Below are positions 20,453 to 37,625 of a stretch of DNA of 43,552 bases, piece by piece. The notes beneath the pieces were generated by a model that did not search any database, had not been told where the DNA came from, and saw only the letters and a list, made by a program, of their open reading frames with translations. The position numbers and the translations under genes were made by a program. Position 1 is the first letter of the stretch. Each line of letters starts with the position of its first letter. Source of the stretch: Sedimentisphaerales bacterium (lineage in GTDB: Bacteria > Planctomycetota > Phycisphaerae > Sedimentisphaerales > Anaerobacaceae); contig JAUWPZ010000013.1 in the NCBI GenBank assembly GCA_030611315.1, positions 1 through 43,552 of the forward strand, given 5' to 3'.

Positions 20453-20521
20453 TGGATATATATAATCTTATCAGCTTTGGAGGGATATTTGTTCTGGTGG
20501 GGATTGCGTGGGGATTCGACC
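20453..20521 (+). pseudogene. 5' remnant, possibly of a concentrative nucleoside transporter gene
   Basis: From the ATG at 20453 the frame reads MDIYNLISFGGIFVLVGIAW, which resembles the N-terminus of NupC-type nucleoside transporters of planctomycetes as I remember them. After about 23 codons the hydrophobic pattern stops and the frame continues with unrelated, basic and cysteine-rich sequence. No further transporter sequence is present in any frame, so only the 5' end remains. Identification rests on a short stretch and is tentative. Confidence 0.35.
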
Positions 20522-20665
20522 TAACTGTTCCGTGCGTGTCCAGGTGTCAGGCTTTTTCCGGGGCTTGTCAGGTTTGCCTTTATTTGCCGGGCCGTGTGCG
20601 GGGGAATCGGCAAAGGCTCCGCAGAGGCAGAAACAAATCAGAAACAACGCGTTAATTTTGCCCAT
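20471..20665 (-). CDS. Small secreted protein or truncated gene, 64 residues
   Basis: Begins with ATG one base after the stop of the HoxU-like gene (TAATATG). It encodes a plausible signal peptide (KINALFLICFCLCGAFA, cleavage after AFA), then a Lys/Pro-rich stretch (ANKGKPDKPRKKPDTW). The last 16 or so residues are antisense to the transporter-like remnant on the plus strand, which suggests the original 3' part was lost and the frame now ends in foreign sequence. No strong ribosome binding site is seen; translation could be coupled to the upstream gene. It may be a degraded gene rather than a functional peptide. Confidence 0.4.
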   Translation of the reverse strand: MGKINALFLICFCLCGAFADSPAHGPANKGKPDKPRKKPDTWTRTEQLGRIPTQSPPEQISLQS

Positions 20666-20666
20666 A

Positions 20667-21230
20667 TTAATCGGCTTCTTCAATTGTCAAAGACTCCAAC
20701 GGACAAAGATAAGCACAGGCGCCGCATCCGATACATTTTTCTGATAACTTGTCAAAAGGCGTCTGTACCTTTCTGTTTATTCCTCTGCTGGAAAAGCTCT
20801 GGGCGCTTCTCTGGCTAACTTCCGCACAAACCCGCATACACAGGCCGCAGAGGATGCAATTTGTTTTATCTTTGAGCTTAATTCGAGTTTCGGTTACACC
20901 ATATTCTTTCGCGAGTTTTTTAACTTTTTCGGCGGAATCCGGACAGCGAGCCAACAAAAGCTCAAAAAGAATCTTCCGTGTTCTCTTGACCCTGTCGGTA
21001 TCGGTTTTAACCTCCAGGCCCTCGGTAACTTTATAGACGCATGAAGCTTCCAGGCCTTTTCTGCCGCCGCCGACTATTTCAACCAGACAGAGCCTGCAGG
21101 CGCCATAGGGCTTCAATTCCTTGTGGTAACACAAGGTAGGGATTTTTATTCCTTCACTCTGGGCTGCTTCCAGTATTGTGGCGCCTTGTTCTACCTGTAA
21201 TTTTTTATCATTAATTGTGAAGCTAACCAT
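20667..21230 (-). CDS. HoxU/NuoG-N-like Fe-S protein of a transhydrogenase (StnA-like)
   Basis: 187 residues: an N-terminal [2Fe-2S] ferredoxin domain with C34, C45, C48 and C64, and two C-terminal [4Fe-4S] motifs, CILCGLC...C (125-135) and CIGCGAC...C (166-176). This matches the N-terminal electron-wiring part of HydA, NuoG or HoxU. It stops before any H-cluster domain; no TSCCP-type hydrogenase motif is present here or elsewhere in the window. The His-containing NuoG-type motif between the domains is also missing. From context I infer it wires electrons between the NuoF/GltD fusion and ferredoxin, as in Sporomusa-type Nfn complexes. AGGA lies about ten bases before the ATG. It is the last clear gene of the redox operon. 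Confidence 0.85.
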   Translation of the reverse strand: MVSFTINDKKLQVEQGATILEAAQSEGIKIPTLCYHKELKPYGACRLCLVEIVGGGRKGLEASCVYKVTEGLEVKTDTDRVKRTRKILFELLLARCPDSAEKVKKLAKEYGVTETRIKLKDKTNCILCGLCMRVCAEVSQRSAQSFSSRGINRKVQTPFDKLSEKCIGCGACAYLCPLESLTIEEAD

Positions 21231-21311
21231 AAGAACACGTCCTAAAAATTTCCGCCCAGCCCAACTATCCTCGGTCAGCGACTTTTGAGGGCCTGGGGTT
21301 TATACTCTGCA

Positions 21312-21758
21312 TTATTCAAAAGAATCAAAATGATAATCGTAATCCGACGTTTTGTAATCAAGAATAAACTGCGTAGCGGGATTTCCCGCAACCAGGGCCG
21401 TCATCGTCTCGAAGACGTCGCCTACCGGCTTCATATCCGGATGGTCTGCATTGAAGACAGCGGTGATTTTTGTTCCTTTTCCCCGCTTAGAGTCTATCTT
21501 CAAATCTCCACCGGTCTGCCGGGCCGCCTGTGAGAGCAGAGAGAGTCCCAGGCCTATTTTTTTGCCGTCCTTCGTGGTAAAGAAAGGGTCCAGAGCCTTT
21601 TGGGCCATTTGCTCGTCCATTCCCTTTCCATCATCTTCGATGGAAAGAGTCAAGGTGTCCCGGTTTTGGTCTTCCAAGAGTCCTATCACTATTCTTTTCC
21701 CACCTGCTCTAATTGCGTTCTCAACTACATCCAGTATGTGTAACGATAAATCTTGCAT
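21312..21758 (-). CDS. Stand-alone HATPase-domain protein
   Basis: 148 residues with the GHKL ATPase boxes: N box DVVENAIRAGG (about 10-20), G1 box IEDDGKGMDE (about 40-49), and G2 box GLGLSLLSQAA (about 69-79). There is no dimerisation helix or phosphoacceptor histidine, so it is not a complete sensor kinase; it resembles anti-sigma-type kinases or the small ATP-binding proteins found beside [FeFe] hydrogenase and NADH-dehydrogenase-like operons in anaerobes. Its target is unknown. It starts six bases after the PHP gene and ends 81 bases before the HoxU-like gene. A regulatory role in expression or assembly of the redox complex is inference. Confidence 0.82.
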   Translation of the reverse strand: MQDLSLHILDVVENAIRAGGKRIVIGLLEDQNRDTLTLSIEDDGKGMDEQMAQKALDPFFTTKDGKKIGLGLSLLSQAARQTGGDLKIDSKRGKGTKITAVFNADHPDMKPVGDVFETMTALVAGNPATQFILDYKTSDYDYHFDSFE

Positions 21759-21764
21759 CCGATA

Positions 21765-22478
21765 TCAGATACTCACTGCTCTGCCCTGGATACCGCGAAA
21801 AGCCATCGCCACTTCGGAAAATGAAAGAGCGCTTAACAAAAATTTTGTAAAGACCCTGCCGATATCCGAGAGTAAATGCGCATCCGAAGAGGTAATAAGC
21901 GGAAGACCATAGCTTTTGTAATTCTCAATTTCATCGGGATTACACCTCGGCGATATTTCCAGGGCATCGAGGGGTAAGTCTTTCGGAATAAAACCCAATT
22001 GTCCAATAATGCTGAAGGATTCCCGGTCGATGTGCGAAGCAACGGTCAACCCGCCCAGACTGTGAGCCGAGGCGACAATTTCATTGACGCCAAGGGTGGT
22101 CGAGCCGATGAGCAGCTTTTTGGTTGAGCCGACTACCTTGTCATATTCATCGGCGATGAGCTGCTCTCCGAAGTACTTTTCATTATTTTCTCCAGGGAGA
22201 TTTTCATAAACGATTGTTTGCATTCGCATTAAAGCGTCATCATCTTCAAAAAAGGCCAAGACATGGACTTCTTCACGAGAACATATTTCCATACCGGCTA
22301 AAACGCGCAGTCCTGCTCTGTGGGCGGCCTTTCTTACGGCTGTGATGTTCTCGGCCGAGTTGTGGTCGCAGATTCCGAGGGCATCGAGATTTTGCTCTCT
22401 GGCTTTTTTGATAATCGCCGTGGGCAGCATCTCCGATTGGGCACAAGGAGAAAGGCAGGTGTGGATATGCAAATCCAT
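21765..22478 (-). CDS. PHP-domain metal-dependent phosphoesterase
   Basis: Starts at the ATG at 22478 (MDLHIHTCLSPC), one base after the upstream stop, with AAGGA eight bases before it; an ATG five codons earlier and longer forms are less likely. PHP metal motifs are seen: HIH at residues 4-6, GICDHNS, GMEICSREEVHVLAFF with the acidic ligand, and SDAHLLSDIG near the C-terminus. About 237 residues. Members hydrolyse phosphoesters of nucleotides or small molecules, but this subgroup, found in redox operons of anaerobes, has no known substrate as far as I know. It is embedded in the regulatory set between the DRTGG and HATPase genes. Confidence 0.85.
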   Translation of the reverse strand: MDLHIHTCLSPCAQSEMLPTAIIKKAREQNLDALGICDHNSAENITAVRKAAHRAGLRVLAGMEICSREEVHVLAFFEDDDALMRMQTIVYENLPGENNEKYFGEQLIADEYDKVVGSTKKLLIGSTTLGVNEIVASAHSLGGLTVASHIDRESFSIIGQLGFIPKDLPLDALEISPRCNPDEIENYKSYGLPLITSSDAHLLSDIGRVFTKFLLSALSFSEVAMAFRGIQGRAVSI

Positions 22479-22479
22479 C

Positions 22480-22842
22480 TTAAATTCCTTCAGCATTATC
22501 TTTAGTCCCGGACAGCCCCAAGGCATATAACTTTCCACATAGTTCAAATGCCGACATACTGCTTACCATAATGGGAAGACGTTCCTGGTCGGCTTTGCTG
22601 ATGGTTTCTTCTTCCGGCTCTCTGGCATTTATTATCACAATTCCAGCTAATTCCTTCATGCCGGCGATAGCAACGATATTTGGATGTATCTGGAGTGTTA
22701 TCCAAAGATTGCCTTTTTCGGCATTGGCCAGCACATCACTCAAAAGGTCGCTGACATATCCATTATTGACCTCGTTATCCAGTGCATCAACTGCAACTCT
22801 GGTTTCCAAGTGTAATTTTTCTACTATCTGTCCTAATTTCAT
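22480..22842 (-). CDS. DRTGG-domain protein (1)
   Basis: 120 residues, a single domain of the DRTGG type, which is found in phosphotransacetylase-like and CBS proteins and often binds small ligands. Visible features are VAVDALDNEVNNGYVSDLLS near the start and IVIINAREPEEETISKA in the middle, a layout shared with the second DRTGG gene at 23838. The name-giving residues are poorly conserved. The stop is one base before the PHP start, so the two are coupled. The start is five bases after the CBS-HATPase gene. Function is not established; a sensory or ligand-binding role is inferred from the neighbours. Confidence 0.75.
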   Translation of the reverse strand: MKLGQIVEKLHLETRVAVDALDNEVNNGYVSDLLSDVLANAEKGNLWITLQIHPNIVAIAGMKELAGIVIINAREPEEETISKADQERLPIMVSSMSAFELCGKLYALGLSGTKDNAEGI

Positions 22843-22846
22843 TTTC

Positions 22847-23851
22847 TCATCCTGCCTTTGTTTGAGGTTGAGTGGTTCTTATATCTATACGGATTTTTAA
22901 ATGAGTTCCTTTGCCCGGGCTTGAAGTCAGCTCCATATCGTCGGCGCATTTTTTGATATTAACCAGGCCCATTCCTGCACCGAAGCCAAGCTCTCTGACC
23001 CATTCGGCAGCAGTGGAGTATCCCGGCTGCATTGCCTTTTGGACATCGGGGATACCTGGACCGGAATCGGTAACGTCGATATGAATTTCGCCGGGCTGAA
23101 CCTCAACCGATATTTCGCCTGATTCGGCATAAATGATTACATTCATCTCGGCCTCATAGGAGGCGATGGCGGCACGGCGAACAATTTGGGGATGGATACC
23201 GAGGCGTTCGAGAGTTTTTTTCAGTCCGCTGGAAGCCTCGCCGGCCCGGTCAAAATCCCCGCCCTTGAGATAAGTGCGAAAGGTCAGAGCGACCTTGTCC
23301 GCAATAATGTCTTCAAAAATGTGGCTTGCACGGTAGCGGTGGATTTCCTCTTCGTGATAGTCAATCTCCATCTTTCGAAGTAATCTTTCAATGATATGGC
23401 CTTTGGTAATTATTCCGACGAGCTTTTTACTTTGGCGGTCAACGACGGGAAAACGGCCAAAGCCGGTCTGGTCAAGCTTGCTGACCGCGTGAATCAACGG
23501 CTCATCGGCATACATTGTTTTAACATTTGTGGTCATCTTATTTTTTATGGGGCAATCCTGGGCCCCTTCGGCCAGCCACTTAATGAAATCTTCGATGCTT
23601 ACAATACCAACCAACCTTCCGTTTTCTATTACAGGCGTACCCGAGATACGGTTGTCTCGTAAAATTTCCCTCAACTTGCTCATTGAAGTCTGGGGGGTGG
23701 TGGTGATTACTTTCTGCATCATCGCATCACCGATTTTCAACTCATAGACCAACTCCTGGACCTTTGTGAACTTCAGGTCGTCAGTTTTTCGGCGTTCCGG
23801 AATTTTCCGGCGAGCGGTGAACGAATCTTTTTTTGAATTATTTGAGCTCAT
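22847..23851 (-). CDS. CBS-pair protein with C-terminal anti-sigma-type HATPase
   Basis: A two-part regulator of about 334 residues. Two CBS repeats lie near residues 40-175 (for example DNRISGTPVIENGRLVGIVS and TGFGRFPVVDRQSKKLVGII), forming an adenosine-nucleotide-binding pair. A GHKL ATPase follows: EAEMN (N box), DVTDSGPGIPD (G1) and LGFGAGMGLVNI (G2), like RsbW/SpoIIAB. CBS pairs commonly sense AMP, ATP or NADH-type ligands, so the protein could link energy state to a protein kinase activity (inference). I choose the ATG at 23851 (MSSNNSKK); the frame overlaps the upstream DRTGG gene by 14 bases, and longer starts are possible. Similar proteins are known beside HydABC-type operons of anaerobes. 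Confidence 0.83.
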   Translation of the reverse strand: MSSNNSKKDSFTARRKIPERRKTDDLKFTKVQELVYELKIGDAMMQKVITTTPQTSMSKLREILRDNRISGTPVIENGRLVGIVSIEDFIKWLAEGAQDCPIKNKMTTNVKTMYADEPLIHAVSKLDQTGFGRFPVVDRQSKKLVGIITKGHIIERLLRKMEIDYHEEEIHRYRASHIFEDIIADKVALTFRTYLKGGDFDRAGEASSGLKKTLERLGIHPQIVRRAAIASYEAEMNVIIYAESGEISVEVQPGEIHIDVTDSGPGIPDVQKAMQPGYSTAAEWVRELGFGAGMGLVNIKKCADDMELTSSPGKGTHLKIRIDIRTTQPQTKAG

Positions 23852-24191
23852 CACAGCCAGGTAAACCTTCCCTATACAATCGGCCACAGGATTCATGCAT
23901 TGATAATTTAGTTGTCAAGAGGGGAATCTTTTTTTCTTCAGCGAGTTTTACCGTACCGGGCTGGGGCTGTTTGCCGCGTACAAAACAAATGCCGGCTATC
24001 CCAGCCATTTCAGCGGTCCTGACAACCTGCGGATTGGCCAAGCCGGTCAACAACAAAGAATCGGCTTTAATAAACGACAATACATCACTCATCAAGTCGG
24101 AGCCACAGGCCATTTTTATCTCTTTATCCAAATCCTTAACATCGCCTATGAAATCGGCTTGAAGTATTTTACATATTTCATTAAGAGTCAT
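23838..24191 (-). CDS. DRTGG-domain protein (2)
   Basis: 117 residues with the layout of the DRTGG protein at 22480: an N-terminal helix, a glycine/aspartate segment (KMACGSDLMSDVLSFI), a hydrophobic strand (SLLLTGLANPQVV), a second strand (GICFVRGKQP) and a C-terminal LLTTKLSMHESCGRLY, matching ELCGKLYALGLSG in the first. The two are clearly paralogues. It starts 12 bases after the NuoF/GltD fusion gene and its stop lies inside the CBS-HATPase gene. Ligand and partner are unknown. Confidence 0.75.
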   Translation of the reverse strand: MTLNEICKILQADFIGDVKDLDKEIKMACGSDLMSDVLSFIKADSLLLTGLANPQVVRTAEMAGIAGICFVRGKQPQPGTVKLAEEKKIPLLTTKLSMHESCGRLYREGLPGCDELK

Positions 24192-24203
24192 TTTTTGGTT
24201 CCA

Positions 24204-27200
24204 TTATTCATCGTCGGATTGTTGAAGGTCACATCTTAAACATCGCCTGGCTTCTCTAACAGCCATTTCCTCGGTGAAAGCCTGTTCGACTTCTTTGAAG
24301 TTCAAATCTCTTTCTTCTACAGGCAGAAGAGGTATTTCGGGCTCTTTAATGTTTTCGAGTTCTTCTTCGGTGAGCTCAACGGCCTCTACGTACATAGCCG
24401 GGCGGGTAACTTTGTATTCTCTCTTGACGGGCTCGCCTTCGAGGTATTTTTGAATCATCAAAGCAGCAATTTTCCCATCAGCAATGGCTTTGACTACGGT
24501 GTCGGGCCCGCTGACCACATCACCGCCGGCAAAAACCCCTTCGGCGGCAGTGCAAAGCGTCTCAGGGTCGGCTTCGATAGTCTTCCACTTTGTAAACTTT
24601 ACTTTTTTGTCGCCTATCGCCGAGCCAATATCAGGCTCCTGGCTAATTGCGGGAATTAAAGTATCAACATCCACAGTAAATTCGGAGCCTTCGATGGGGA
24701 CAGGCCTTGCCCGGCCGCTCTGGTCAACCTCGCCGAGTTTCATTTTCCGGAAATCAACGCCGGTCAATTTTCCGTTGGACGAAACTGCTTTTACCGGAGC
24801 GACGAGATATTCAATATCAATACCTTCTTTTACGGCTTCTTCGATCTCTTCGGCGGCGGCTGGCATTTCTTTTCTGGTCCTTCTGTAATAGATTTTGACA
24901 TCCTTGCCCAGGCGTTTTGCTGTCCTGGCCGCGTCAATCGCGGCATTTCCTCCGCCTATAACGATAACCCTTTGTCCGATTTGTACCGGCCGGCCGAGGT
25001 TGAATTTTCTGAGGAAATCCACACCGTCGATGACACCATCAAGCTCTTCGCCCGGTATGCCCAGCTTTAAGCCGGTGTGAGCGCCGGTGGTGATGAATAC
25101 CGCATCATACTCCTTTTTCAAATCATCAAAAGCTATGTCTTTTCCAACAGTAATATCGGTCTTTATCTGGACGCCGGTTTTTTTTATGATTTCTATTTCG
25201 TAATTCAGGATATCGCGCGGCAACCTGTATTCGGGGATGCCCACGGCCAACATTCCCCCGACGACAGGCAGGGCTTCGAGTATTGTTACATCATAGCCTT
25301 CGAGAGCAAGGTAATAAGCGCAGGACAGGCCCGCCGGGCCCGAGCCGATAACGGCGACTTTTTTGCCCTTTTTGGGCTTTGTTTCAATATCGACGGACAA
25401 GTTATTTTTCATTTCATAATCTGCAAGGAACCTTTTGAGTGCCCTGATATTAATCGGCGTTGCGCCCCCGGCGCCTGCCTTGCATTTGAACTCGCACGGA
25501 TGCGTACAGACCCTTCCGCATACGGCGGGCAAAGGATTTTCTTTTCTTACGATTTTTACGGCTTCTTCGAATTTTTTCTGTGCTATAAGGCCTACATAGC
25601 ATGGGACATCCTGTTCAAGCGGACAGGCATGCTGGCAGGCAGAGGAAATAATTTTCCTGCACACACCGGCGGGGCATCTTTTGTATTTTATATGCTCGAT
25701 GTATTCGTCTCTGAAATACTTCAAAGAGGTCAATACGGGATTGGGCAGAGTCTGGCCCAATCCACACATTGAGGCCTCCTTGACCGCAAGGCCAATTTCC
25801 TCAAGCAGGTCGAGGTCTTCTTCGGTTCCTTCGCCGCTGCATATTTTTTCAAGGATTTCGCGAAGCGCGGCGGCGCCTTCTCGGCAGGAAAAGCACTTTC
25901 CGCAGGATTCATCACAGGTAAACTCGAGAAAATACTTTGTCATATCGACTATGCAAGTATCTTCATCCACGACAATCATACCGCCCGAACCCATGATTGC
26001 ACCGGCTTCTTTCAGCCGCTCATAATCAATGGGCAGATGAATCAGAGATGTAGGGATGAATCCGCCGGAGGGACCGCCGGTCAGAACGGCCTTGAGTTTT
26101 TTGCCGTAAGGAATTCCGCCGCCAATGTCATAGACCATTTCACGAAGGGTTATTCCCATTGGGACTTCAACCAGGCCGCCGGCATTATAGATGTTGCCGG
26201 CGAGGGAGAAGACTTTTGTTCCCCGGCTTTGTTCGGTGCCTATTTCGCCGAACCATTTGGCTCCACGGTCGATTATCATCGCCACGTTTGCCAGCGTCTC
26301 AACATTATTGATATTTGTGGGGCAGCCCCAGAGACCGGATTCGACAGGAAATGGTGGTTTTTGTGTGGGCTCGGGAGCAAGGCCTTCAATTGAGTGAATC
26401 AGGGATGTTTCTTCACCACAAACAAAGGCGCCTGCGCCCTGAAAAGTGGTCAAGTCAAAATTAAATCCGGAGCCGAGTATATCATCTCCAAGCAATCCAT
26501 ATTCTTTGGCCTTTTCCATCGCAGCTTCGATTCTTTTTATTGCCAGGGGATATTCAATTCTTATATATACGTATCCATGCGTTGCCCCGATGGCGTATGC
26601 AGCGATACACATTCCCTCGATGACAGAGTGTGGGTCGGCCTCAATAATACTGCGGTCCATAAAGGCGCCCGGGTCGCCCTCGTCGGCGTTGCATATAAGA
26701 TACACAAGGGTGTCGGGATCCTGTGCGGTTCTTTTCAACGCATTATTCCTGCAGAATCCCCATTTTCTTCCGGTTGGGAAGCCGGCGCCGCCTCGGCCTC
26801 GCAGGCCCGATGCCTTGATTTCTTCGATTACCTGCTCCGCAGTCATGGTTGTGAGGACCTTTGCCAGGGCCTTATAGCCATCGTTTGCTATGTATTCGTC
26901 GATACTATCAGGCGAAATCAAGCCGCGATTTCGAAGGGCAACGAGTTTCTGGTTCTTGAAGAATGGGATGTCCTGAATTTTTGGAATTGGGGTTTCTTCG
27001 TCGGCGGGCACGTACATAAGGGACTCTACGGGCCGGCCCTTCAAGAAGTGTTCCTCAACGAGATTCGGGATGTCATTTTCCTTTAGATGCTGATAAAAGA
27101 TGCCATCGGGCTGGACCATCAAAATGGGCCCCTTCACACAAAGCCCGCTGGCGCCTGTCTGGACCACTTGAACTTCATCCTGCAGCTTTCTGTTGGCCAG

Positions 27201-27362
27201 CTCCGATTCAAGTGCATTTTTTATTTTTAACGCACCGTTGGAAATACAGTTGGTACAAGTGCAGATAATTGCGTGTAAACGATGGCGAACGGTCGTCTTT
27301 GCGCTTGCCTGGCCCTTCCTCAAGTTAATCACGCCTTTCATTTTTTGGGCAATCTTATCCAA
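24204..27362 (-). CDS. NuoF/HydB-GltD/NfnB fusion flavoprotein (StnB-like)
   Basis: 1052 residues with two complete modules. The first is NuoF/HydB: a thioredoxin-like [2Fe-2S] domain (CTCTNC at 34-39, GLC at 73-75), the NADH/FMN site (GLRGRGGAGFPTGRKW at 186-201, NADEGDPGAFMDR at 225-237), and the [4Fe-4S] CDESCGKCFSC (483-493). The second is GltD/NfnB: two Fe-S motifs (CPAGVC, ACQHACP, CGRVC, HPCEFKC; 563-627), FAD site GSGPAG (673-678), and a second dinucleotide site GGGNAA (803-808) followed by YYRRTRKEMPA, whose arginines suggest NADP(H). The C-terminus RRCLRCD is as in NfnB. I infer a bifurcating NADH/NADPH/ferredoxin transhydrogenase. The start shown is TTG; an ATC at 27386, with AGGAG six bases upstream, would add eight homologous residues. 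Confidence 0.9.
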   Translation of the reverse strand: MDKIAQKMKGVINLRKGQASAKTTVRHRLHAIICTCTNCISNGALKIKNALESELANRKLQDEVQVVQTGASGLCVKGPILMVQPDGIFYQHLKENDIPNLVEEHFLKGRPVESLMYVPADEETPIPKIQDIPFFKNQKLVALRNRGLISPDSIDEYIANDGYKALAKVLTTMTAEQVIEEIKASGLRGRGGAGFPTGRKWGFCRNNALKRTAQDPDTLVYLICNADEGDPGAFMDRSIIEADPHSVIEGMCIAAYAIGATHGYVYIRIEYPLAIKRIEAAMEKAKEYGLLGDDILGSGFNFDLTTFQGAGAFVCGEETSLIHSIEGLAPEPTQKPPFPVESGLWGCPTNINNVETLANVAMIIDRGAKWFGEIGTEQSRGTKVFSLAGNIYNAGGLVEVPMGITLREMVYDIGGGIPYGKKLKAVLTGGPSGGFIPTSLIHLPIDYERLKEAGAIMGSGGMIVVDEDTCIVDMTKYFLEFTCDESCGKCFSCREGAAALREILEKICSGEGTEEDLDLLEEIGLAVKEASMCGLGQTLPNPVLTSLKYFRDEYIEHIKYKRCPAGVCRKIISSACQHACPLEQDVPCYVGLIAQKKFEEAVKIVRKENPLPAVCGRVCTHPCEFKCKAGAGGATPINIRALKRFLADYEMKNNLSVDIETKPKKGKKVAVIGSGPAGLSCAYYLALEGYDVTILEALPVVGGMLAVGIPEYRLPRDILNYEIEIIKKTGVQIKTDITVGKDIAFDDLKKEYDAVFITTGAHTGLKLGIPGEELDGVIDGVDFLRKFNLGRPVQIGQRVIVIGGGNAAIDAARTAKRLGKDVKIYYRRTRKEMPAAAEEIEEAVKEGIDIEYLVAPVKAVSSNGKLTGVDFRKMKLGEVDQSGRARPVPIEGSEFTVDVDTLIPAISQEPDIGSAIGDKKVKFTKWKTIEADPETLCTAAEGVFAGGDVVSGPDTVVKAIADGKIAALMIQKYLEGEPVKREYKVTRPAMYVEAVELTEEELENIKEPEIPLLPVEERDLNFKEVEQAFTEEMAVREARRCLRCDLQQSDDE

Positions 27363-27398
27363 ATCTTCCGGTCTTAACTTTGCGATTTTGGGCTCCTG

Positions 27399-28349
27399 TT
27401 AATAATACTTATGCAACACTTCATCTATCATATTCAGTCTGAAATACCCATAGATGTCGTCATTAACAGCAATTACGGGAGATTGGCCGCAACAGCCAAT
27501 GCAACTGACGGTCTCCAGGGTGTACTTGAGGTCTTCGGTGTTTTGGCCAACCTTTATTCCGAGTTTAGTTTGCATGGTCTCGAGGATTCTCCTGCCGCCC
27601 TTGACGTAGCAGGATGTTCCCATACAAACCCTGATAATGTTCCTACCCTTCGGCGTAAGGCTGAAGGCGTTATAAAAAGTGGCAATCCTGTGCAGCTCGC
27701 TCAAAGGCATATCGAGGCTCTTGGCAGTGAATCTCAAAACAGGCTCGGGTAAATAATTAAAAGCGGTGTTAATCCTCTGCAGAACGGGGACGACGGAGCC
27801 TCGGGCGCCTCTATATTCTTCGAGTATTTTGTCGAGCTTTTCTTTGTCGTCGTGCTTTAGCTTTACTATTCTTTTTTCCTGTGAAAGCTGCTCCCGTCCC
27901 TTCATTATGAATTGCCATCGCAGTTTTGGGTCGTAGGTTTTGTTTTTGACGATAGTTCTGACGGTAGTGAGGAAATCGGGTATGAATATTTCGAGGTCGT
28001 CTTTGATTTTTACCTGACAGGCAAGCCTGGTGCCGGCAAGTTTCTCCTCGCGGCTCATAAAGATTTCTTCCGTGGGCAGTATCCGGCCTCCACCGCTTTG
28101 CACCTGGACTTTGCAGTAGCCGCAGGTTGCCTTACCTCCGCAGGAAGAGGTGATTTTTACTCCGTGGTCGATGAGGCTCGAAAGCAGGAAGCCTCCGCCC
28201 TGGACGGTAAATTCCTTAGACTCGCCCTCCTGGATGATGGATATTTTACACTCGCCATAAGAGACAAGGAGCTTGTCGGCAACGGCAAGAAGGATGGTTA
28301 TTACCAGCAAAATGCCGCTAATAATAAGTACAGGTAAAAAGCTACTCAT
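27399..28349 (-). CDS. NqrF-type anchor and ferredoxin domain fused to NuoE
   Basis: 316 residues. One membrane helix (about 5-25) is followed by a [2Fe-2S] domain with C70, C76, C79 (SSCGGKATCGYCKVQV) and C111 (RLACQV), matching the N-terminus of NqrF, including GGRILPTEE. In NqrF an FAD/NADH reductase domain follows; here, after a charged linker (about 135-175), a NuoE/HydC domain appears, with thioredoxin-like [2Fe-2S] ligands C242, C247, C283 and C287 (VCMGTSC, CIGCC) and PVLQRINTAFNYLPEPVL. No FAD site is present. The gene occupies the nqrF position after nqrE and precedes the NuoF/GltD gene by 36 bases. I infer that it tethers the soluble flavoprotein to the membrane pump and passes electrons between them. 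Confidence 0.88.
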   Translation of the reverse strand: MSSFLPVLIISGILLVITILLAVADKLLVSYGECKISIIQEGESKEFTVQGGGFLLSSLIDHGVKITSSCGGKATCGYCKVQVQSGGGRILPTEEIFMSREEKLAGTRLACQVKIKDDLEIFIPDFLTTVRTIVKNKTYDPKLRWQFIMKGREQLSQEKRIVKLKHDDKEKLDKILEEYRGARGSVVPVLQRINTAFNYLPEPVLRFTAKSLDMPLSELHRIATFYNAFSLTPKGRNIIRVCMGTSCYVKGGRRILETMQTKLGIKVGQNTEDLKYTLETVSCIGCCGQSPVIAVNDDIYGYFRLNMIDEVLHKYY

Positions 28350-28368
28350 AGAATGCCACCGTTACAAG

Positions 28369-28956
28369 TTAGTTTATATCTACCATTCCACCGAATCCCA
28401 TAAAAGCCAGTGCGATAATACCGGCGATAATCATAATGATGCCGGAGCCTTTGAGTCCGCCTGGAATATCACCAATCAACTTCAGTTTTTCATTGATAGC
28501 GGCCACTATCATAATTGCGAGCATCCATCCAACGGCTGAGCCGAGAGCGAAAACGAGTGTCATACCATAGGAATAATCTCTCAAGACCATAAAAAGCGAT
28601 ACCGCCAGGACGGTGCAGTTTACGGTTATCAGGGGCAGGAAAATGCCGAAGGCAGCCTGAAGCGGCGGGAAAAACCGCTCCATAATCATTTCCACAAGCT
28701 GTACGGAAGCGGCAATGACAATAATAAAAACGATGTAGTAAATGATTTCGCTTTCGAGAGGCACCAAAATCTTGTGGTAAATGGGCCAGTTAATCGCCGC
28801 GGTAAGCGTAACAACAAAAATCACGGCTATGCTCATCCCGAAAGCCGTTTTGATGCTTCGCGAGAGCGAAATAAAGGGACACATACCAAGAAGATACGTC
28901 AGGGCAATATTGTGAGTCAGAATCGCCGCTATGAATATAGTTAACGCGTGTGCCAT
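28369..28956 (-). CDS. nqrE: Na+-translocating NADH:quinone oxidoreductase subunit E (NqrE/RnfA)
   Basis: 195 residues with six hydrophobic segments. LGMCPFISLSRSIKTAFG and GIFLPLITVNCTVLAVS carry the two cysteines that in this family coordinate an Fe-S centre in the membrane together with subunit D. The ending IPGGLKGSGIIMIIAGIIAL is characteristic of NqrE rather than RnfA. It starts three bases after nqrD and is followed by the fused NqrF/NuoE gene. Its role is electron transfer across the membrane plane and part of the ion path. Confidence 0.92.
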   Translation of the reverse strand: MAHALTIFIAAILTHNIALTYLLGMCPFISLSRSIKTAFGMSIAVIFVVTLTAAINWPIYHKILVPLESEIIYYIVFIIVIAASVQLVEMIMERFFPPLQAAFGIFLPLITVNCTVLAVSLFMVLRDYSYGMTLVFALGSAVGWMLAIMIVAAINEKLKLIGDIPGGLKGSGIIMIIAGIIALAFMGFGGMVDIN

Positions 28957-28959
28957 TTT

Positions 28960-29592
28960 TTATGCTTCCTCTTCTGCCGAACCACGTTCAGCTATTGCTC
29001 TCGATATCCACAATGCCAATCCCAAAAGGAAAAAAGCGCCCGGGGCCATTGTCATAACGACCCAGTTTTCCCAACCTCCCGGCATAACCCGAAAGCCGAG
29101 CAAAGTTCCAAAGCCGAGAACCTCCCGTACTATAGCGATAGTAATGAGTGTATAGGAATAACTCAGGCCGTTTGAGACGGCGTCCAGGACGGAGTGATAA
29201 ACTTTGTTCTGTATGTAAAAGGCCTCTGCCCGGCCCATAATGATGCAGTTTGTAATGATAAGCCCGACATAAGGCCCGACGGATTCACTAATCACGGGAA
29301 AAAAAGCCTTGAGGAACTTGTCAACGATAATAACGAACGAAGCGATCGTTATCATATATGTTATTATTCTTACGCGCTGAGGAATCAACGACCTCAACGT
29401 CGAAACGATGATTGCGGTCGCAATGAGAACGAAGGTAACGCCCGCGCCCATAGCCACGGCGTTTTCGACTTTGTTGCTGACGGCCAGCGCCGAGCATATT
29501 CCCAGACCTGCAGCGAATATGGGATGTTCACGCCATATACCCTTTTTGAGGATTTTGTAACCTTCGGGGCCGAAAAGCTTCTTAAGCACCAT
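28960..29592 (-). CDS. nqrD: Na+-translocating NADH:quinone oxidoreductase subunit D (NqrD/RnfE)
   Basis: 210 residues, six hydrophobic segments. GLGICSALAVSNKVENAVAM and VGLIITNCIIMGRAEAF carry the paired cysteines of the shared NqrD/NqrE Fe-S centre; the IPQRVRIITYMITIASFVIIV segment is typical of NqrD. Its ATG shares one base with the nqrC stop (TAATG), showing coupling. The N-terminal cytosolic segment (KKLFGPEGYKILKKG) is basic, as usual. The C-terminal tail is acidic (EERGSAEEEA-like). Confidence 0.92.
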   Translation of the reverse strand: MVLKKLFGPEGYKILKKGIWREHPIFAAGLGICSALAVSNKVENAVAMGAGVTFVLIATAIIVSTLRSLIPQRVRIITYMITIASFVIIVDKFLKAFFPVISESVGPYVGLIITNCIIMGRAEAFYIQNKVYHSVLDAVSNGLSYSYTLITIAIVREVLGFGTLLGFRVMPGGWENWVVMTMAPGAFFLLGLALWISRAIAERGSAEEEA

Positions 29593-30176
29593 TACTTACT
29601 TTCCTTAATTAAAGATACGTACTTTTGAGTCTGGCTGTTTATAATTGCCACAAATGCCTTACAACTCAAAGTTGCGCCGGATATTCCATCCACTTCATTT
29701 TCCTGCGAGGCCTTGCCCTGTGATAATAATGTCAGAGTAGGGGAGATTTTTTTGGTCTTGAATCGGTTTAAGAAGTCATCTTCGGCAATTCTTCCACCCA
29801 GGCCCGGGGTTTCTTCCTGATGAATAATGCTGATTCCTTTTATCGTTTCGAGGTCAGAGGCCAGGGCGAGTGCACCCTCGATAGGCCCCCACAGACCTGA
29901 GCCTAAGAACTTAAAAACAATATCTCCGCTTTCTTTGGCTATGTAATAGGAATCCTCTTCGCCGATGGGTTCTGTCTGCACTTTTTCGGTAAATACTTCG
30001 TTCGCATCTTCCTCAGTAAAGGGGATATCAAGCGCTTTGAGGACACTGATTTGCAATTTTCTGGCCTGATTTTCTGCTATAAAGGGGGCGGTATAGGCAT
30101 CAACCCTGACCAGCGCAAAAGTCAAGAGAGAACCGAGTACCAGGACAAAAACGACCATCCATACTTTTTCTTTCAT
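29592..30176 (-). CDS. nqrC: Na+-translocating NADH:quinone oxidoreductase subunit C (NqrC/RnfG)
   Basis: 194 residues with one N-terminal membrane anchor (about 6-26) and an exported FMN-binding domain. The covalent FMN site is the threonine in VDGISGATLS near residue 168. GSGLWGPIEGALALASD and EETPGLGGRIAEDDF are typical of NqrC. The start overlaps the nqrB stop by four bases (ATGA). Flavin attachment requires an ApbE transferase, which is not in this window. Confidence 0.92.
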   Translation of the reverse strand: MKEKVWMVVFVLVLGSLLTFALVRVDAYTAPFIAENQARKLQISVLKALDIPFTEEDANEVFTEKVQTEPIGEEDSYYIAKESGDIVFKFLGSGLWGPIEGALALASDLETIKGISIIHQEETPGLGGRIAEDDFLNRFKTKKISPTLTLLSQGKASQENEVDGISGATLSCKAFVAIINSQTQKYVSLIKESK

Positions 30177-31201
30177 ATTTTCACCGGTCGGAATTTGAAC
30201 TTCAGGACAATATAGTCAATAAGGGGAGTAAAAGCGTTCATAATCACAATGCTGAACATCACGCCTTCCACATTTGCGGAGAAACTGCGGATTAAGACAG
30301 TGAGTATTCCACAGGATATACCAAAGAAGTATTTTCCGGCTTTTGAAAAGGGCGAAGTAACGGGGTCTGTCGCCATAAACATCGCCCCGAAGAGGAGTCC
30401 TCCTGTGAGGACCTGGAAGAGCGGCGGAGCAATTTTTTCAGGCAGGAAATGGTTGCCGGCCAGAGCGGCGATGAAAACCGAGCCGATGTAACAAACTGGT
30501 ATTCGCCAGTTGCCTACCCTGGTGAACATCAAAAAGATTCCGCCGAGTATTATTGCGATTCTGCATGTTTCGCCCATGCTGCCGGGCTGCGTTCCGATAA
30601 GCAGGTCGAGATACGGCGCCATAATGCCTTCACTATTATACACCGAGAGGGGCGTAGCCGAAGTGATGGCGTCGGTAAGAGGGTCCTGCCAATTGGTGGT
30701 CATTATGGCGGGAAAAGCGATTGTGATAAACAATCTTCCGACAAGAGCGGGATTGAAGATGTTTCTTCCAGTACCCCCAAAAACCTCCTTTCCAAAGAAC
30801 ACGCCGAACATAACGCCGACGGCGACAATCCAGAGGGGCGTTGTGGGGGGCAGGACAAGCGGGAAGATAAGGCCCGTAACGAGGAAACCCTCGTGTATCT
30901 TGTGCTTGCGAATCACCGCGAACATAAACTCGACAAACAGACCGGCTGCATACGATACCGCGATAATCATTATTGCTCTGAATCCATAGAAATACACCGA
31001 GGCCAGTGCGGCGGGTACGAGTGCGGCTATGGCGCAGGACATATATCTCTTGGTGTCGATAGTATCAACAATGTGCGGTTTGCCCCGGGTCGTTTCATCG
31101 GTCCCGAACATGGCGGCGTCCATAGCGTCAAGCATAGGCTTGGCTTTGTTCAGCGCCCGGATTTTATACAATTTGTCGATAAGTAACCTGATAGGCTTCA
31201 T
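30173..31201 (-). CDS. nqrB: Na+-translocating NADH:quinone oxidoreductase subunit B (NqrB/RnfD)
   Basis: 342 residues, about ten hydrophobic segments. RKHKIHEGFLVTGLIFPLVL and FFGKEVFGGTGRNIFNPALV are the NqrB signatures; the N-terminal segment GKPHIVDTIDTKRYM is also NqrB-like rather than RnfD-like. The flavinylation site region reads DAITSATPLS, where the canonical S-G-A-T has S in place of G (T-S-A-T); FMN attachment may still occur at the threonine but deserves a check. The subunit holds the ion channel and riboflavin site in known complexes. GAGG is about eleven bases before the ATG. Confidence 0.92.
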   Translation of the reverse strand: MKPIRLLIDKLYKIRALNKAKPMLDAMDAAMFGTDETTRGKPHIVDTIDTKRYMSCAIAALVPAALASVYFYGFRAIMIIAVSYAAGLFVEFMFAVIRKHKIHEGFLVTGLIFPLVLPPTTPLWIVAVGVMFGVFFGKEVFGGTGRNIFNPALVGRLFITIAFPAIMTTNWQDPLTDAITSATPLSVYNSEGIMAPYLDLLIGTQPGSMGETCRIAIILGGIFLMFTRVGNWRIPVCYIGSVFIAALAGNHFLPEKIAPPLFQVLTGGLLFGAMFMATDPVTSPFSKAGKYFFGISCGILTVLIRSFSANVEGVMFSIVIMNAFTPLIDYIVLKFKFRPVKI

Positions 31202-31262
31202 CTAATCAAAACCTCAACATTGTCTTTATCGTTATACGAGCGGCAAAATCGGCCGCTTCGAG

Positions 31263-32756
31263 CTATTTTAGGCTTTTCAATTTCTCAACAGCTTTCAGTT
31301 CAAAACCGCCAGAAGGACATTCGAACCCCTCCTCCAGGAGTTTTTGCTTTCCCTGTTTTATGTATTGGCCCACGGAGATCTTGGACGGGCAAACATAACT
31401 GCACAGATTACATTCGATGCAGTTGAATATTTTTAAGCTCAGTAAGGTCTCATCAATAACATCCCTTTCAACATAGTGGAAAAGATGATGGGGGATTATG
31501 GCGACGGGGCAGACATTTTCACAGAATGTGCAAAAAATACAGGGTCTTTCTTCGCCGTGAAGATTGGTTGAACAAGTTTTCTGAAAGGTATCGCTGCCAT
31601 CCTTAAACAAGGCCGAAAGAACGGTACGGGAATATGAGTCTCTTTTGAAGCCGGGCCTGGCAAAGGCGAGAAACTCTCTTTCGGTGTCTTCGGGAAGAGC
31701 GATTATGGTGTTGAATGTTCGGTCAACGGGCGAAGATAAATCAGAAAGAGCCTCGCCTGTCAAGGAGCTGTTCCGTATGAATCGCAACTCTTTATCCTGC
31801 CTGGCTCTGTCTTTGACAACGTGCTCGATGGGTGAGCCGATTCTTACACCGAGATGTGGCCTTTCTCTAAAGCCGCCGCCGCATAAGGCTATGGTCCTTT
31901 CTATGAGAGGCTTGCCCTGGGCGACTGCTTCATAGACGTGCAAAACAGCCTGGATGTCCAGTACAATCACCCCGATATTCGCCGACGAGAAACCGTGCGG
32001 GAATTCCCTGTCCAGCAGAATCGGGATTAGAACTTCATCGTAATCCAGAGGATATTTGGGCTTGAGGGAGTAAATGCCGAACGAGTCGGTATCAGCAAGA
32101 AAATCGGTAACTTCGGTAATCAGATTCTTTGCCGATTTGTCCAGGGCAATGTGGAAGGCAGCATTAGTCAAAAGCTTTTTTAATATCTTCAGCCCAACTA
32201 TGAAATGCCATAAGTGCCCATCCCTCAAAAGGACTTCCAGGGAAAGGTTGTGCACCTCTGAGCCCACGCCCTGAATAATGACATTCTCAACGTCCCGTGG
32301 AGAGATTATTGAACTGTTAAATCCTGTGGGTATGCCCGACTTGCCGAGGGAACCTGCGCCTGAGAGATAAATCAATCGGCCAATCTGTTCGGCGGACAAG
32401 TTTTCCCATTCGGATGAAAACCCGTCCAATTTCTGGAAGTCATCTGTGCCGTCAGATTCTATCGTGACCGCATTTATTTCGCGCCCGGAATAATTGACCT
32501 GTTCAACCTGGATGACCTTTCCATTTACCGATGAATGAACGGGGCTGGAAACAGATTCGTCGTCTCTTGCGATTATCTGCCCGGCTGCAACCTTGTCGCC
32601 CGGTTTGACAATGGGTGGAACCTCGTCGCCGAAACCCTGCTTCAACGGGATAATTACTTTTTCAGGAATGTTAATTTGGAGAAAATTGTCCTGTGGCTGT
32701 CCCTCGAAATTCTTAAAGGCGTAGCCGCGTGAAAACGATTTGTGTTTTGCTGTCAT
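31263..32756 (-). CDS. nqrA: NqrA/RnfC-type subunit retaining two [4Fe-4S] motifs
   Basis: 497 residues. An RnfC/NqrA barrel-sandwich domain lies near the N-terminus (IPLKQGFGDEVPPIVKPGD at 36-54, SPVHSSVNGKVIQV at 71-84). The middle domain is NqrA-like, for example LIERTIALCGGG and EFLAFARPGFKRDSYSR (361-377). At the C-terminus are two ferredoxin motifs, CIFCTFCENVCP (406-417) and CIECNLCSYVCPS (446-458), typical of RnfC and absent from ordinary NqrA. The RnfC NADH/FMN motif is degraded: GKSGIPT (138-144) where RnfC has a double glycine, and no E-C-E-P loop at 161-169. It therefore looks intermediate between the two families; nucleotide binding is doubtful, quinone binding untested. First gene of the redox operon, 61 bases before nqrB. 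No promoter was convincingly found. Confidence 0.85.
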   Translation of the reverse strand: MTAKHKSFSRGYAFKNFEGQPQDNFLQINIPEKVIIPLKQGFGDEVPPIVKPGDKVAAGQIIARDDESVSSPVHSSVNGKVIQVEQVNYSGREINAVTIESDGTDDFQKLDGFSSEWENLSAEQIGRLIYLSGAGSLGKSGIPTGFNSSIISPRDVENVIIQGVGSEVHNLSLEVLLRDGHLWHFIVGLKILKKLLTNAAFHIALDKSAKNLITEVTDFLADTDSFGIYSLKPKYPLDYDEVLIPILLDREFPHGFSSANIGVIVLDIQAVLHVYEAVAQGKPLIERTIALCGGGFRERPHLGVRIGSPIEHVVKDRARQDKELRFIRNSSLTGEALSDLSSPVDRTFNTIIALPEDTEREFLAFARPGFKRDSYSRTVLSALFKDGSDTFQKTCSTNLHGEERPCIFCTFCENVCPVAIIPHHLFHYVERDVIDETLLSLKIFNCIECNLCSYVCPSKISVGQYIKQGKQKLLEEGFECPSGGFELKAVEKLKSLK

Positions 32757-33046: not shown

Positions 33047-34615
33047 ATGTGCCAGTGCCACGTTCATAGTTCATGTCAAGGTTGCCGCCAGGTCGTTGGT
33101 CGGCGGCGTTTCCTCCAGGGCTTCGGGGCGGCCGCGGCTATGACTGTTGGGGGGCTGGCGTCGCTTGCCGGCGCTGCTGCCGACGACAAGGCCGGGAATA
33201 TCCGCGTCGCGGCGGTTTTTTTGGCCAACATTAAAATAAGAGAAATCTGGCCCTATCCGGGATTCGACACCAAGGGTCGCCAGAGCGAAATCCTCGCCCG
33301 CTTGAAAAAAGGCTGTCCCGAGGTCGAATTTGTCCCGGTGACGATCGAAAACAAAAATGACATTCAGAAAGCCGTCGCCATGCAGGGCGAGGTCGAAGGT
33401 TACCTGGTCTATGTGATGACCCTCGATTGGTCGCTGGGACAGGCGATAGTCGACATCAGCAGACTCGGCAAGCCGTTGGTCGTCGCCGACGAGTTCCTCG
33501 GGGGGTGCGGCACGTTTCTGACTCGCTACGCCGGTCTGCGAAGTCGAAAGGTCCCCGCGGTCGGCGTGTCATCGACCCGTCTCGACGATTTGGTGGCGGT
33601 GGCCCGGCAGTTCGCCTTCGTCCGTAAGCCCGGAACGACGCCCGCCTCCTTCGCCCGGCGGTGTAGCGAAGTCTATAGGAAAACCTTTCTCGCTCCGCGC
33701 GCGATGGAGTGTGCCGAAGATCAGATGTCCCTGACTGATATTGGCGAGTGCATCAAGCGGTTCCGCCAGTCGCGGTTCTTGATCGTCGGCCGAGGCAGAG
33801 GCGGCCAGGAGCAGGACTTCCTGGGGGCGAAGGGGCGTTACGTCGATTTCAGCGAACTGCAGGCTCTCTACGAGAAGGTTGACTACGACGAGGCCGCAGA
33901 ACAAGCCGGCCGCTGGCGTCAGCAGGCCGACAAGGTGATGGAGCCTGAACTCGAAGCCATCCACAAGGCGGCGGCCGTCTATCTGGCGACGCTGGAGCTG
34001 CTCAAGAAATACGGCACCGACAGCGTGACCATGAACTGCCTCGGGGGATTTTCCTCCGGCAGGCTTCCGGCCTATCCATGCCTCGGGTTTATGCAGATTC
34101 TCAACGACGGCGGGCAGGGAGTCTGCGAGGCCATGCCCGACGACACGCTCAGCATGCTGATGGCCAGGATACTCACTGGCCGCCCCGGCTACGTGTCCGA
34201 CCCGGCGCTGGATACGTCGAAGAACCATATTGTCTATTCTCACTGCGTGGCCACAACCAGGGTGTTCGGTCCGGAGGGTAAGTCGAACAGCTTCCGTATT
34301 CGTACGCTTCACAACCGCGACCCGCGCGGAGCCTGTGTCCAGTCGTTCCTGCCTGGCGGTTATATGACGACCTCCTTTCGCACCAGCTTCGGGCAGAAGA
34401 AGATGGTCATCCATCAGGCCAAGGCCGTGAGCAACCTCGACAGCGAGTACGGATGCCGCACCAAGCTGGTCGCCGAAGTCCGCGGCGACATCGGCAAGTT
34501 GTTCGAGAAGTGGGACAGTTTTGGCTGGCATCGGGTGACCGTTTACGGCGACGTCAAAGAGCCGCTTGTGGAATTCGGCAAGGCGTTAGGATTAGAAATC
34601 ATCGAAGAGACATAG
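33047..34615 (+). CDS. Tat-exported sugar-isomerase-like protein (L-fucose/arabinose isomerase fold)
   Basis: 522 residues. The ATG at 33047 has AAGGAG seven bases upstream. The first 14 residues, MCQCHVHSSCQGCR, hold four cysteines and two histidines, an uncommon start, followed by the Tat motif GRRRFLQGF and a hydrophobic segment to about residue 45. The rest resembles the L-fucose isomerase family without clear assignment: an N-terminal Rossmann-like part (VAAVFLANIKIREIWPYPGF), a middle part (RFLIVGRGRGGQEQDFLG) and a C-terminal part (GGFSSGRLPAYPCLGF, CEAMPDD). In such isomerases metal ligands are Glu and Asp in the corresponding regions; E and D in CEAMPDD are candidates. Catalysis and substrate are unproven. 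It is transcribed away from the redox operon. Confidence 0.7.
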   Translation: MCQCHVHSSCQGCRQVVGRRRFLQGFGAAAAMTVGGLASLAGAAADDKAGNIRVAAVFLANIKIREIWPYPGFDTKGRQSEILARLKKGCPEVEFVPVTIENKNDIQKAVAMQGEVEGYLVYVMTLDWSLGQAIVDISRLGKPLVVADEFLGGCGTFLTRYAGLRSRKVPAVGVSSTRLDDLVAVARQFAFVRKPGTTPASFARRCSEVYRKTFLAPRAMECAEDQMSLTDIGECIKRFRQSRFLIVGRGRGGQEQDFLGAKGRYVDFSELQALYEKVDYDEAAEQAGRWRQQADKVMEPELEAIHKAAAVYLATLELLKKYGTDSVTMNCLGGFSSGRLPAYPCLGFMQILNDGGQGVCEAMPDDTLSMLMARILTGRPGYVSDPALDTSKNHIVYSHCVATTRVFGPEGKSNSFRIRTLHNRDPRGACVQSFLPGGYMTTSFRTSFGQKKMVIHQAKAVSNLDSEYGCRTKLVAEVRGDIGKLFEKWDSFGWHRVTVYGDVKEPLVEFGKALGLEIIEET

Positions 34616-37453: not shown

Positions 37454-37625
37454 AACTGCATACCCTTTCTGTGGGGTTGTCTCTATAATTCTATTTCGAT
37501 ACTTCCTGCAAAATAATATCTGAAAATATCGAGCTCGGCAACAGCAAAAATCTGTCAAAAATTTCTTTAAACTGAGTATCAATTGAAAAAAGTGTGGATT
37601 GTTTGGGAGCGGTGTTGTATATTGA

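Follow-up and report, generated by a model that had tools for sequence, protein, structure and literature searches.

Gene content of the minus-strand run

The window analyzed here, a stretch of 43,552 nucleotides of contig JAUWPZ010000013.1 of a Sedimentisphaerales bacterium (GCA_030611315.1; Planctomycetota), contains a run of 13 genes in which the subunits of an ion pump of the NQR/RNF type are combined with the NuoE-, NuoF- and HoxU-like subunits of a Bfu-type enzyme. In the open reading frame (ORF) listing and with Pfam and NCBIfam profiles, all 13 genes were identified on the minus strand, in one run from 32756 to 20667, with intergenic gaps of -68 to +81 bases if the first start codon of each gene is assumed. 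The run was delimited at these positions because the flanking plus-strand ORFs diverge from it (start at 33047) and converge on it (end at 20379); the left edge of 20471 given in an earlier reading of the sequence alone lies ~200 bases beyond the last stop codon. This sequence-only reading had listed pump genes, F-NuoE, NuoF-GltD, regulatory genes and a HoxU-like gene, all of which were found on the minus strand, and it was right that the operon lacks RnfB, an NqrF reductase domain and a hydrogenase domain. The gene arrangement is not due to chance, because the same arrangement was found again in distant loci.

The first gene (31263..32756) encodes the A/C subunit, an RnfC/NqrA-like protein of 497 amino acids (aa). 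It passed the RnfC cut-off (TIGR01945, 255.7 bits; cut-off 245.95), failed that of NqrA (124; cut-off 321.05) and kept two [4Fe-4S] motifs (CxxCxxCxxxC), whereas NqrA of Na+-NQR has no Fe-S clusters. Therefore, the first pump subunit, named nqrA before, is present but is not a canonical NqrA. The flavin mononucleotide (FMN)/NAD motif of RnfC has been lost: by eye, SLGKSGIPT stands against GLGGATFPT or GMGGATFPT in the RnfC chains of PDB 9eri and 7zc6. The NqrB/RnfD-like B/D subunit (342 aa; 30173..31201) contains the covalent-FMN threonine motif TSATPL and passed the RnfD cut-off (256.4; cut-off 207.05); its raw NqrB score is higher (273.3) but lies below the cut-off of 349.9. It is followed by the NqrC/RnfG-like C/G subunit (29592..30176), with an FMN_bind domain and an SGAT motif, and by the NqrD/RnfE-like D/E subunit (28960..29592) and the NqrE/RnfA-like E/A subunit (28369..28956), which both have cysteines at the positions of the intramembrane [2Fe-2S] cluster. 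For D and E, the NqrD/NqrE scores were somewhat above the RnfE/RnfA scores and all were below cut-off. The subunits earlier called nqrB, nqrD and nqrE are thus present, but none of them reached its NQR cut-off. The covalent-FMN motifs of NqrB/C and the cysteines of NqrD/E known from Na+-NQR were found as motifs, from which the cofactors are predicted.

At the F position (27399..28349), a fusion protein of 316 aa is encoded, in which a hydrophobic N-terminus and an NqrF-type 2Fe-2S domain are followed by a NuoE/HydC domain. When compared with solved structures, it matched NqrF chains at residues 7-130 (PDB 8a1t_F) and HydC-type chains at residues 169-315. The match to the NqrF model TIGR01941 covered model positions 5-127 of 405 only, and the flavin adenine dinucleotide (FAD)/NADH reductase half is absent. 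The NuoE part carries the four-cysteine motif of a BfuC (NuoE-like, one 2Fe-2S cluster). By homology, F-NuoE is predicted to be anchored in the membrane. The following gene (24204..27362) encodes a NuoF/HydB (BfuB) core, which matched HydB-type chains at residues 27-573, and a GltD domain, which matched GltD-bearing chains (9bov_A, 8oh5_C) at residues 575-1045 or 1046. The FMN loop, the B1 cysteines and the B2 ligands C470, C508, H557, C563 and C568 are present. At the C-terminus, where other BfuB have a 2[4Fe-4S] ferredoxin domain (B3, B4), GltD is found instead. Both fusions had been proposed before and were confirmed by the profiles and the structure-chain matches; the AlphaFold model of NuoF-GltD, with a mean pLDDT (predicted local distance difference test) of 69.0, was too weak for domain placement. 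The last gene (20667..21230) encodes a HoxU-like BfuA of 187 aa with one 2Fe-2S and two 4Fe-4S motifs, and without a His-Cys3 motif or an H-cluster domain.

Between NuoF-GltD and HoxU lies a regulatory-looking cassette of five genes, encoding a DRTGG-domain protein (23838..24191), an anti-sigma-like protein with a CBS pair and a HATPase (22847..23896), a small protein without Pfam match, labeled DRTGG2, which was found again in relatives (22480..22842), a PHP-domain protein (21765..22547) and a small HATPase (21312..21758). The ORF divergent from the pump operon (33047-34615, 522 aa) gave no match in a Pfam search. Further out, at 18354-19355 and 35996-37582, the operon is flanked by a formylglycine-generating-enzyme-like gene and a sulfatase, and an oxidoreductase and a beta-helix protein lie beyond.

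Recurrence of the pump-linked module

The genome search for the gene set, which the sequence-only reading had proposed, was performed as a contig scan with F-NuoE as query. From 82 loci that passed, 80 were kept, and in 13 of these the anchor was identified (L009-L018, L022, L039, L041); as a single-protein query reaches close relatives only, this number is a lower bound. The record titles name Planctomycetota (2), Lentisphaerales, Desulfobacterales, Chitinivibrionales, Desulfobulbaceae, Desulfofustis, Spirochaetales (2) and Spirochaetes, and those of L011, L013 and L015 carry no phylum name. Ten of the 13 loci encode the anchor as a fusion with NuoE, whereas the three Spirochaete loci have it as a separate 149-aa protein adjoining NuoE. 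Pump genes lie beside the anchor in 12 of the 13 (the contig of L009 begins inside F) and beside NuoE in none of the 67 loci matched by NuoE alone, some of which have short flanks. NuoF was found in the same run in 12 of the 13, at most ~530 bases from F-NuoE in nine (by tblastn match where the ORF call was short) and beyond the regulatory cassette in the three Spirochaete loci. HoxU could be identified in 10; the contigs of L009 and L014 end before it, and L013 continues without it. The hybrid is rare: across the phylum, 1 of 294 genomes, the one that carries the window, passed at E <= 1e-60. A family-weighted sample of 61 genomes held an E/A subunit at 88% or more only in this genome, in G004 and in G035, which has a different input module (see below). 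G004 is also the genome of L013 (same contig coordinates) and was counted once among the 14 hybrid-bearing genomes.

The fixed B2 ligands C470, H557, C563 and C568 are kept in all 13 pump-linked BfuB proteins (window and 12 loci), and the fifth position is C, T or S. Of the 12 related loci with BfuB, 11 have the C-terminal ferredoxin dicluster; the exception is L010, where, as in the window, GltD is found instead. The window is a modified Bfu member, because it lacks the B3/B4 domain that the wider pump-linked group has. Among the pump-linked loci, GltD was found on BfuB only in the window and L010 and is evidently a local variant, so that the earlier proposal that NADH, NADPH and ferredoxin are equilibrated by NuoF-GltD could hold for a local variant at most. 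GltD-fused BfuB proteins were also identified in L019, L027, L030, L033, L043, L046, L048, L066 and L071, without pump genes in the sequenced stretch; the dicluster motif is present in none of these nine, and the fusions in L066 and L046 were identified from the alignment, as the sequence pattern missed both. HoxU measures 185-205 aa in the nine loci with a complete gene. A hydrogenase remnant was considered and rejected: the H-cluster motif was found in none of the ORFs listed for the 13 loci, and HoxU ends at 185-205 aa.

Two observations concern the N-terminal part of NuoF. Its cluster motif, which is taken as B5 of PMC9304861, is altered in the window (24204-27362, residues 34-75), L009, L010, L011 and L012 to CTCTNC ... 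GASGLC or GANGLC, with loss of the usual TGC cysteine, and a similar change is seen in several pump-free loci, e.g. L019-L021. An extra protein of 126-135 aa that resembles the N-terminal 2Fe-2S part of NuoF is encoded in L011 (11072-11479), L013 (1566-1967), L022 (13922-14302), L039 (10912-11292) and L041 (12538-12924), either before NuoF or alone (L013); the first residues of the window NuoF-GltD resemble its start.

Pump lineage and redox genes of the hybrid-bearing genomes

In a tree of the D/E and E/A subunits (52 taxa, 380 columns, LG+F+G4), the hybrids together with L126 were split off with a support of 100, RNF with 100 and all other NqrF-type NQR with 98. The NQR set was drawn mostly from the window's own order and from hybrid-bearing genomes, four of the latter with NqrF above the TIGR01941 cut-off; it holds no NQR of Vibrio or Bacteroides. 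An NqrB tree (28 taxa) gave the split of hybrids and L126 with a support of 99; here, NQR was not recovered as one group and L126 was unresolved. A first tree left out L097, L102 and L114 (duplicates), L108 and L111. The second, which is the D/E and E/A tree described above, dropped L144 and L132 (missing genes) and did not include L094-L097, L102, L108, L111 and L114, for most of which longer stretches were used. Neither of these two trees contains L009 or L013. On this phylogenetic evidence, the pump forms a lineage separate from both RNF and NqrF-type NQR.

L126 belongs to G035, a genome of the same family. Its A/C, B/D, C/G, D/E and E/A subunits are 68, 75, 62, 77 and 87% identical to those of the window, its F gene encodes an ordinary NqrF of 365 aa with reductase domain, and no Bfu genes were found over 20 kb of the 20.7-kb contig. 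The input module has evidently been swapped between the window-type and the G035-type pump, because the same pump stands in G035 with an ordinary NqrF and no adjacent Bfu genes. L126 groups with the window and L010 with a support of 100 (96 in the first tree), and this nesting favors a replacement of NuoE by NqrF in G035 as the direction. At the level of genes, the pair shows that the pump core can sit with either input module. The NqrF-type relatives were picked by their E/A match, and the FNR motif was present in the F gene of 24 of 25 (the frame of G002 was too short).

The pump cofactor motifs are kept across the hybrids, except that one D/E motif was unmatched in L012 and in L013 (contig cut); ATP(L/M) is aligned at the covalent-FMN site of B/D in all 12 hybrids with this subunit. 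Two 4Fe-4S motifs are kept in nine of the 10 A/C subunits visible among the hybrids, and L015 has one strict motif. The RnfC motif GGAxFP was found in none of the eight testable hybrids, nor in the window, compared to all four RnfC examined; this test leaves out L012 and L017 (A/C cut) and L009, L013 and L014 (no A/C visible). The A/C subunits of L010 and L041 pass the RnfC cut-off. Those of L016 and L018 are below all cut-offs, with near-equal TIGR scores for NqrA and RnfC (133.7/132.5 and 114.4/113.2), and their best match is another NqrA model (196.7 and 169.7). A first subunit of the NqrA/RnfC-like kind with two 4Fe-4S motifs was also observed in NQR operons with ordinary NqrF, namely in L126 (13041-14558), L130 (9360-10856), L136 and L140, and not in L131; the genomes of these four operons (G035, G036, G071 and G004, respectively) gave neither MenD above cut-off nor an MqnA/D-family match. 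In passages of PMC4014512 it is proposed that RnfC, after the loss of RnfB, lost both flavin and Fe-S features on the way to NqrA. The flavin motif and the Fe-S motifs seem to have been lost in separate steps, because A/C subunits occur with Fe-S motifs but without the RnfC motif, and Fe-S-bearing A/C subunits occur beside ordinary NqrF.

On contig C135, apart from the pump operon, the genome of the window (3.70 Mb; completeness rated at 93%) carries a complete rnf set, to which its RnfB belongs. A TIGR01941 search of this genome at its rated completeness revealed no full-length NqrF; partial matches covered Fer2 alone, in the operon and in stretches of two longer frames, or the reductase half alone, which was matched twice. 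A canonical nqrF or rnfB elsewhere that completes the pump had been named as what would speak against the hybrid. An rnfB does exist elsewhere, and its completing of the pump was rejected, as it belongs to its own rnf set; a full-length nqrF was not found.

MqnA/D-family genes were identified in two of the 14 hybrid-bearing genomes (L017, L018) and MenD above cut-off in two others (L009, L010); the genome of the window gave neither a MenD nor an MqnA/D-family match. The NqrF-type relatives are equally poor in quinone genes (MqnA/D-family in 3 of 25, MenD above cut-off in 3 of 24; neither in the single-contig genomes G058 and G039, rated 99% complete), and the missing genes were therefore rejected as proof of a non-quinone exit. 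UbiA (PF01040) gave no information on this point, as all 16 genomes and all 14 controls had a match. PntB gave no match in the genomes of the window and L010, nor in 11 of the other 14 genomes searched.

Further NuoE/NuoF/HoxU-type sets were observed in the window's genome. In L090 (C57, 2481-8850), a 293-aa protein with a C-terminal NuoE, whose N-terminus we take by eye to resemble HdrA, adjoins NuoF and a protein of 1088 aa, which begins with a HoxU-like 2Fe-2S part and continues with FAD and 4Fe-4S domains. L092 (C217, 2719-6659) contains a NuoE-NuoF fusion of 784 aa; its neighbor, a protein of 529 aa, has 2Fe-2S, Fer4_20 and partial FAD/NAD domains, and the set is possibly Nfn-Bfu-like. 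In L091 (C100, 6649-11911), NuoE, NuoF and a 262-aa HoxU-like gene are immediately followed by a gene of the Prismane/CO dehydrogenase family, and this set may be a Codh-Bfu.

Proposed electron path, alternatives and relation to known systems

The operon is a real, recurrent hybrid of two known kinds, an NQR/RNF pump and a Bfu enzyme, and its function is predicted from the genes. NuoE, NuoF and HoxU make up the core of the electron-bifurcating Bfu family, whose enzymes couple redox changes of NAD(H), ferredoxin and a third substrate. We consider it quite probable that the electron-entry subunit of the pump has been replaced by the NuoE/NuoF/HoxU (Bfu) module, giving an NQR/RNF-Bfu pump. The sequence-only reading had already described such a module tethered to the pump by the NqrF anchor; this is the best reading, in view of the recurring fusion, a module that recurs without GltD, the kept bifurcation ligands and the NqrF found in the same slot in G035. 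For confurcation taken by itself, the chances appear about even. A single physical complex, as well as the direction, ion, route and exit described below, is what we infer from gene content.

In the proposed path, the hydrophobic stretch and the 2Fe-2S domain of NqrF would be kept and its FAD/NADH reductase domain exchanged for NuoE (BfuC), which would arrive with NuoF (BfuB) and the small HoxU (BfuA) as a three-subunit Bfu module. NADH would deliver its electrons to the FMN of NuoF; these should reach the 2Fe-2S domain of F and the pump, because NuoE stands in place of the NqrF reductase domain. It is likely that another donor of low potential enters at the far end of NuoF, because the NuoE cluster of Bfu enzymes is proposed, in passages of PMC9304861, as a shuttle between FMN and B2 en route to ferredoxin. 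This donor would be reduced ferredoxin in most relatives and possibly NADPH, via GltD, in the window version. The merged electrons would pass from the NuoE 2Fe-2S cluster, or from HoxU, to the 2Fe-2S domain of F, and from there over the D/E 2Fe-2S cluster and the FMN of C to the flavins of B, which would drive Na+ or H+ export. Their final acceptor could be a quinone or, if they leave over the 4Fe-4S clusters of A/C, a soluble molecule. Because GltD occupies the place of the ferredoxin-docking domain, the window version might even work as an NADPH/NADH transhydrogenase that is assembled from parts of NQR/RNF and Bfu and either pumps ions or is driven by an ion gradient, which is considered improbable. 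It would then be a functional analog of the proton-translocating PntAB with no sequence relationship to it; the lack of PntB is compatible with this and not telling, because most of the other genomes searched lack PntB as well.

Several observations weigh against an NQR/RNF-Bfu pump. The AlphaFold model of F-NuoE (mean pLDDT 58.7) was too weak for domain placement and gives no support. L013 (G004:C83) carries F-NuoE and the extra 2Fe-2S gene and then continues with unrelated genes, with no NuoF or HoxU on the contig. Subunit exchange is possible in part of the hybrid-bearing genomes, because eight of the 14 match NqrF over both halves (four above the curated cut-off; six do not) and 13 of the 14 have RnfB above cut-off. 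MqnA/D-family or MenD genes in only four of the 14 do not point to the electron exit. The B2 ligands are kept also in the other 68 BfuB proteins aligned (one gap at C568), and the alignment contained no non-bifurcating NuoF, which makes the test one-sided; the bifurcation assignment therefore rests on the criterion of PMC9304861, in passages of which the B2 His is described as conserved in virtually all BfuB and missing from non-bifurcating homologs.

This criterion bears on the possibility that one complex works as a plain NADH:quinone oxidoreductase, with NuoE, NuoF and HoxU as a complex-I-type NADH module on an NQR pump. The NQR-side place of the hybrids in the D/E and E/A tree rooted on RNF agrees with it, as do the quinone genes in the genomes of L017 and L018 (MqnA/D-family) and of L009 and L010 (MenD); yet all 13 pump-linked BfuB proteins have retained the B2 His/Cys ligands, which non-bifurcating homologs, none of which was compared here, are said in PMC9304861 to lack, and 11 of the 12 related loci have the ferredoxin dicluster, so that we regard it as rather unlikely. 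About the same doubtful standing is given to a single RNF-like complex with a closed loop, in which electrons from ferredoxin (NADPH in the window) would run over BfuB and NuoE to F and return from the 4Fe-4S clusters of A/C over HoxU to NAD+ at the FMN of NuoF, so that, in sum, electron transfer from ferredoxin or NADPH to NAD+ would be coupled to the pumping of ions without a quinone. The conserved 4Fe-4S motifs of A/C, its loss of the RnfC FMN/NAD motif, a HoxU without a catalytic domain of its own and the missing MenD and MqnA/D-family matches in the window's genome would fit such a loop. However, two-motif A/C subunits occur also in the NqrF-type pumps of L126 and L130 (both without Bfu genes in the stretch covered) and of L136 and L140, and the A/C clusters thus need no HoxU partner; moreover, a complete RNF is already encoded elsewhere in the window's genome.

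Two separate enzymes in one operon, a pump and a co-regulated soluble Bfu-type enzyme for which the F-NuoE fusion is only a membrane anchor, would agree with the separate anchor and NuoE genes of the three Spirochaete loci, with the frequency of Bfu-type modules without a nearby pump (67 of 80 loci) and with the further NuoE/NuoF/HoxU sets of the window's genome. The pump operons would then be left without any electron entry, as three have a bare Fer2 domain, 10 Fer2-NuoE and none a reductase domain, and a full-length NqrF that could be lent was matched neither in this genome nor in five other hybrid-bearing genomes. The anchor domain is also the pump-feeding NqrF domain at the NqrF position. 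We regard separate enzymes as slightly less likely than either of the single-complex alternatives.

The NQR/RNF-Bfu operon shares features with several known systems. With Na+-NQR it shares the pump core and, at the same gene position, the N-terminal stretch and 2Fe-2S domain of NqrF, but NuoE, NuoF and HoxU stand in place of the FAD/NADH domain, and A/C has two 4Fe-4S motifs and scores as RnfC. RNF has a homologous five-gene core in the same order, and A/C scores above the cut-off of RnfC and B/D above that of RnfD, whereas the operon lacks RnfB, has lost the RnfC FMN/NAD motif and belongs to a separate lineage. In passages of PMC9304861 (Schut et al. 2022), two membrane-bound Bfu classes, Mbh-Bfu and Nuo-Bfu, are described, whose gene clusters combine BfuABC with an ion pump of the membrane. 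The operon shares this combination and has the B2 ligands, but the pump is of the NQR/RNF type, BfuC is fused to the anchor and BfuA has only 185-205 aa. The likeness to Stn (Nfn-Bfu of Sporomusa ovata), noted before, stood for the HydBC-like core and the NADPH domain GltD. In Stn, however, according to passages of PMC10482914, StnAB are HydBC-like and StnC combines GltD with a NuoG-like part, whereas GltD is on the BfuB C-terminus here; membership in Stn was rejected on this ground. Here, in addition, HoxU is a separate 187-aa protein, the module is linked to a pump, and 11 of the 12 pump-linked relatives with BfuB lack GltD. The window GltD matches chain 8oh5_C (1172 aa) at 103-567. This chain is presumably StnC, judged by its length.

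A joining of an NQR/RNF pump with a Bfu module was not found in the open-access literature searched, a scope outside of which lie subscription papers, preprints and supplements; the passages covered include those of PMC4014512, PMC10482914, PMC8880783, PMC12174285, PMC7382037, PMC6349859, PMC11406978 and PMC4814513. The main text of the 2025 RNF/NQR review (PMC12174285) contains none of the words 'fusion', 'hybrid' and 'variant'. The main text of PMC9304861 contains 'Nqr' 0 times and 'Rnf' once (the supplement is outside this count). The pump-linked BfuB may already sit in the tree of that paper, because 17 of its 57 BfuB clades are, in the passages covered, without function.

If the NQR/RNF-Bfu reading is true, the operon would add a third membrane-bound Bfu class to Nuo-Bfu and Mbh-Bfu, and the RNF/NQR pumps would gain a separate lineage. 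The electron-entry module of these pumps would be exchangeable, as in the close pair of the window and G035, which differ in that module. For the origin of NQR from RNF, an A/C subunit without the RnfC FMN/NAD motif but with Fe-S motifs would be an intermediate in the losses proposed in the passages of PMC4014512, and the joining of bifurcation and ion pumping in one NQR-type complex would become a testable matter.

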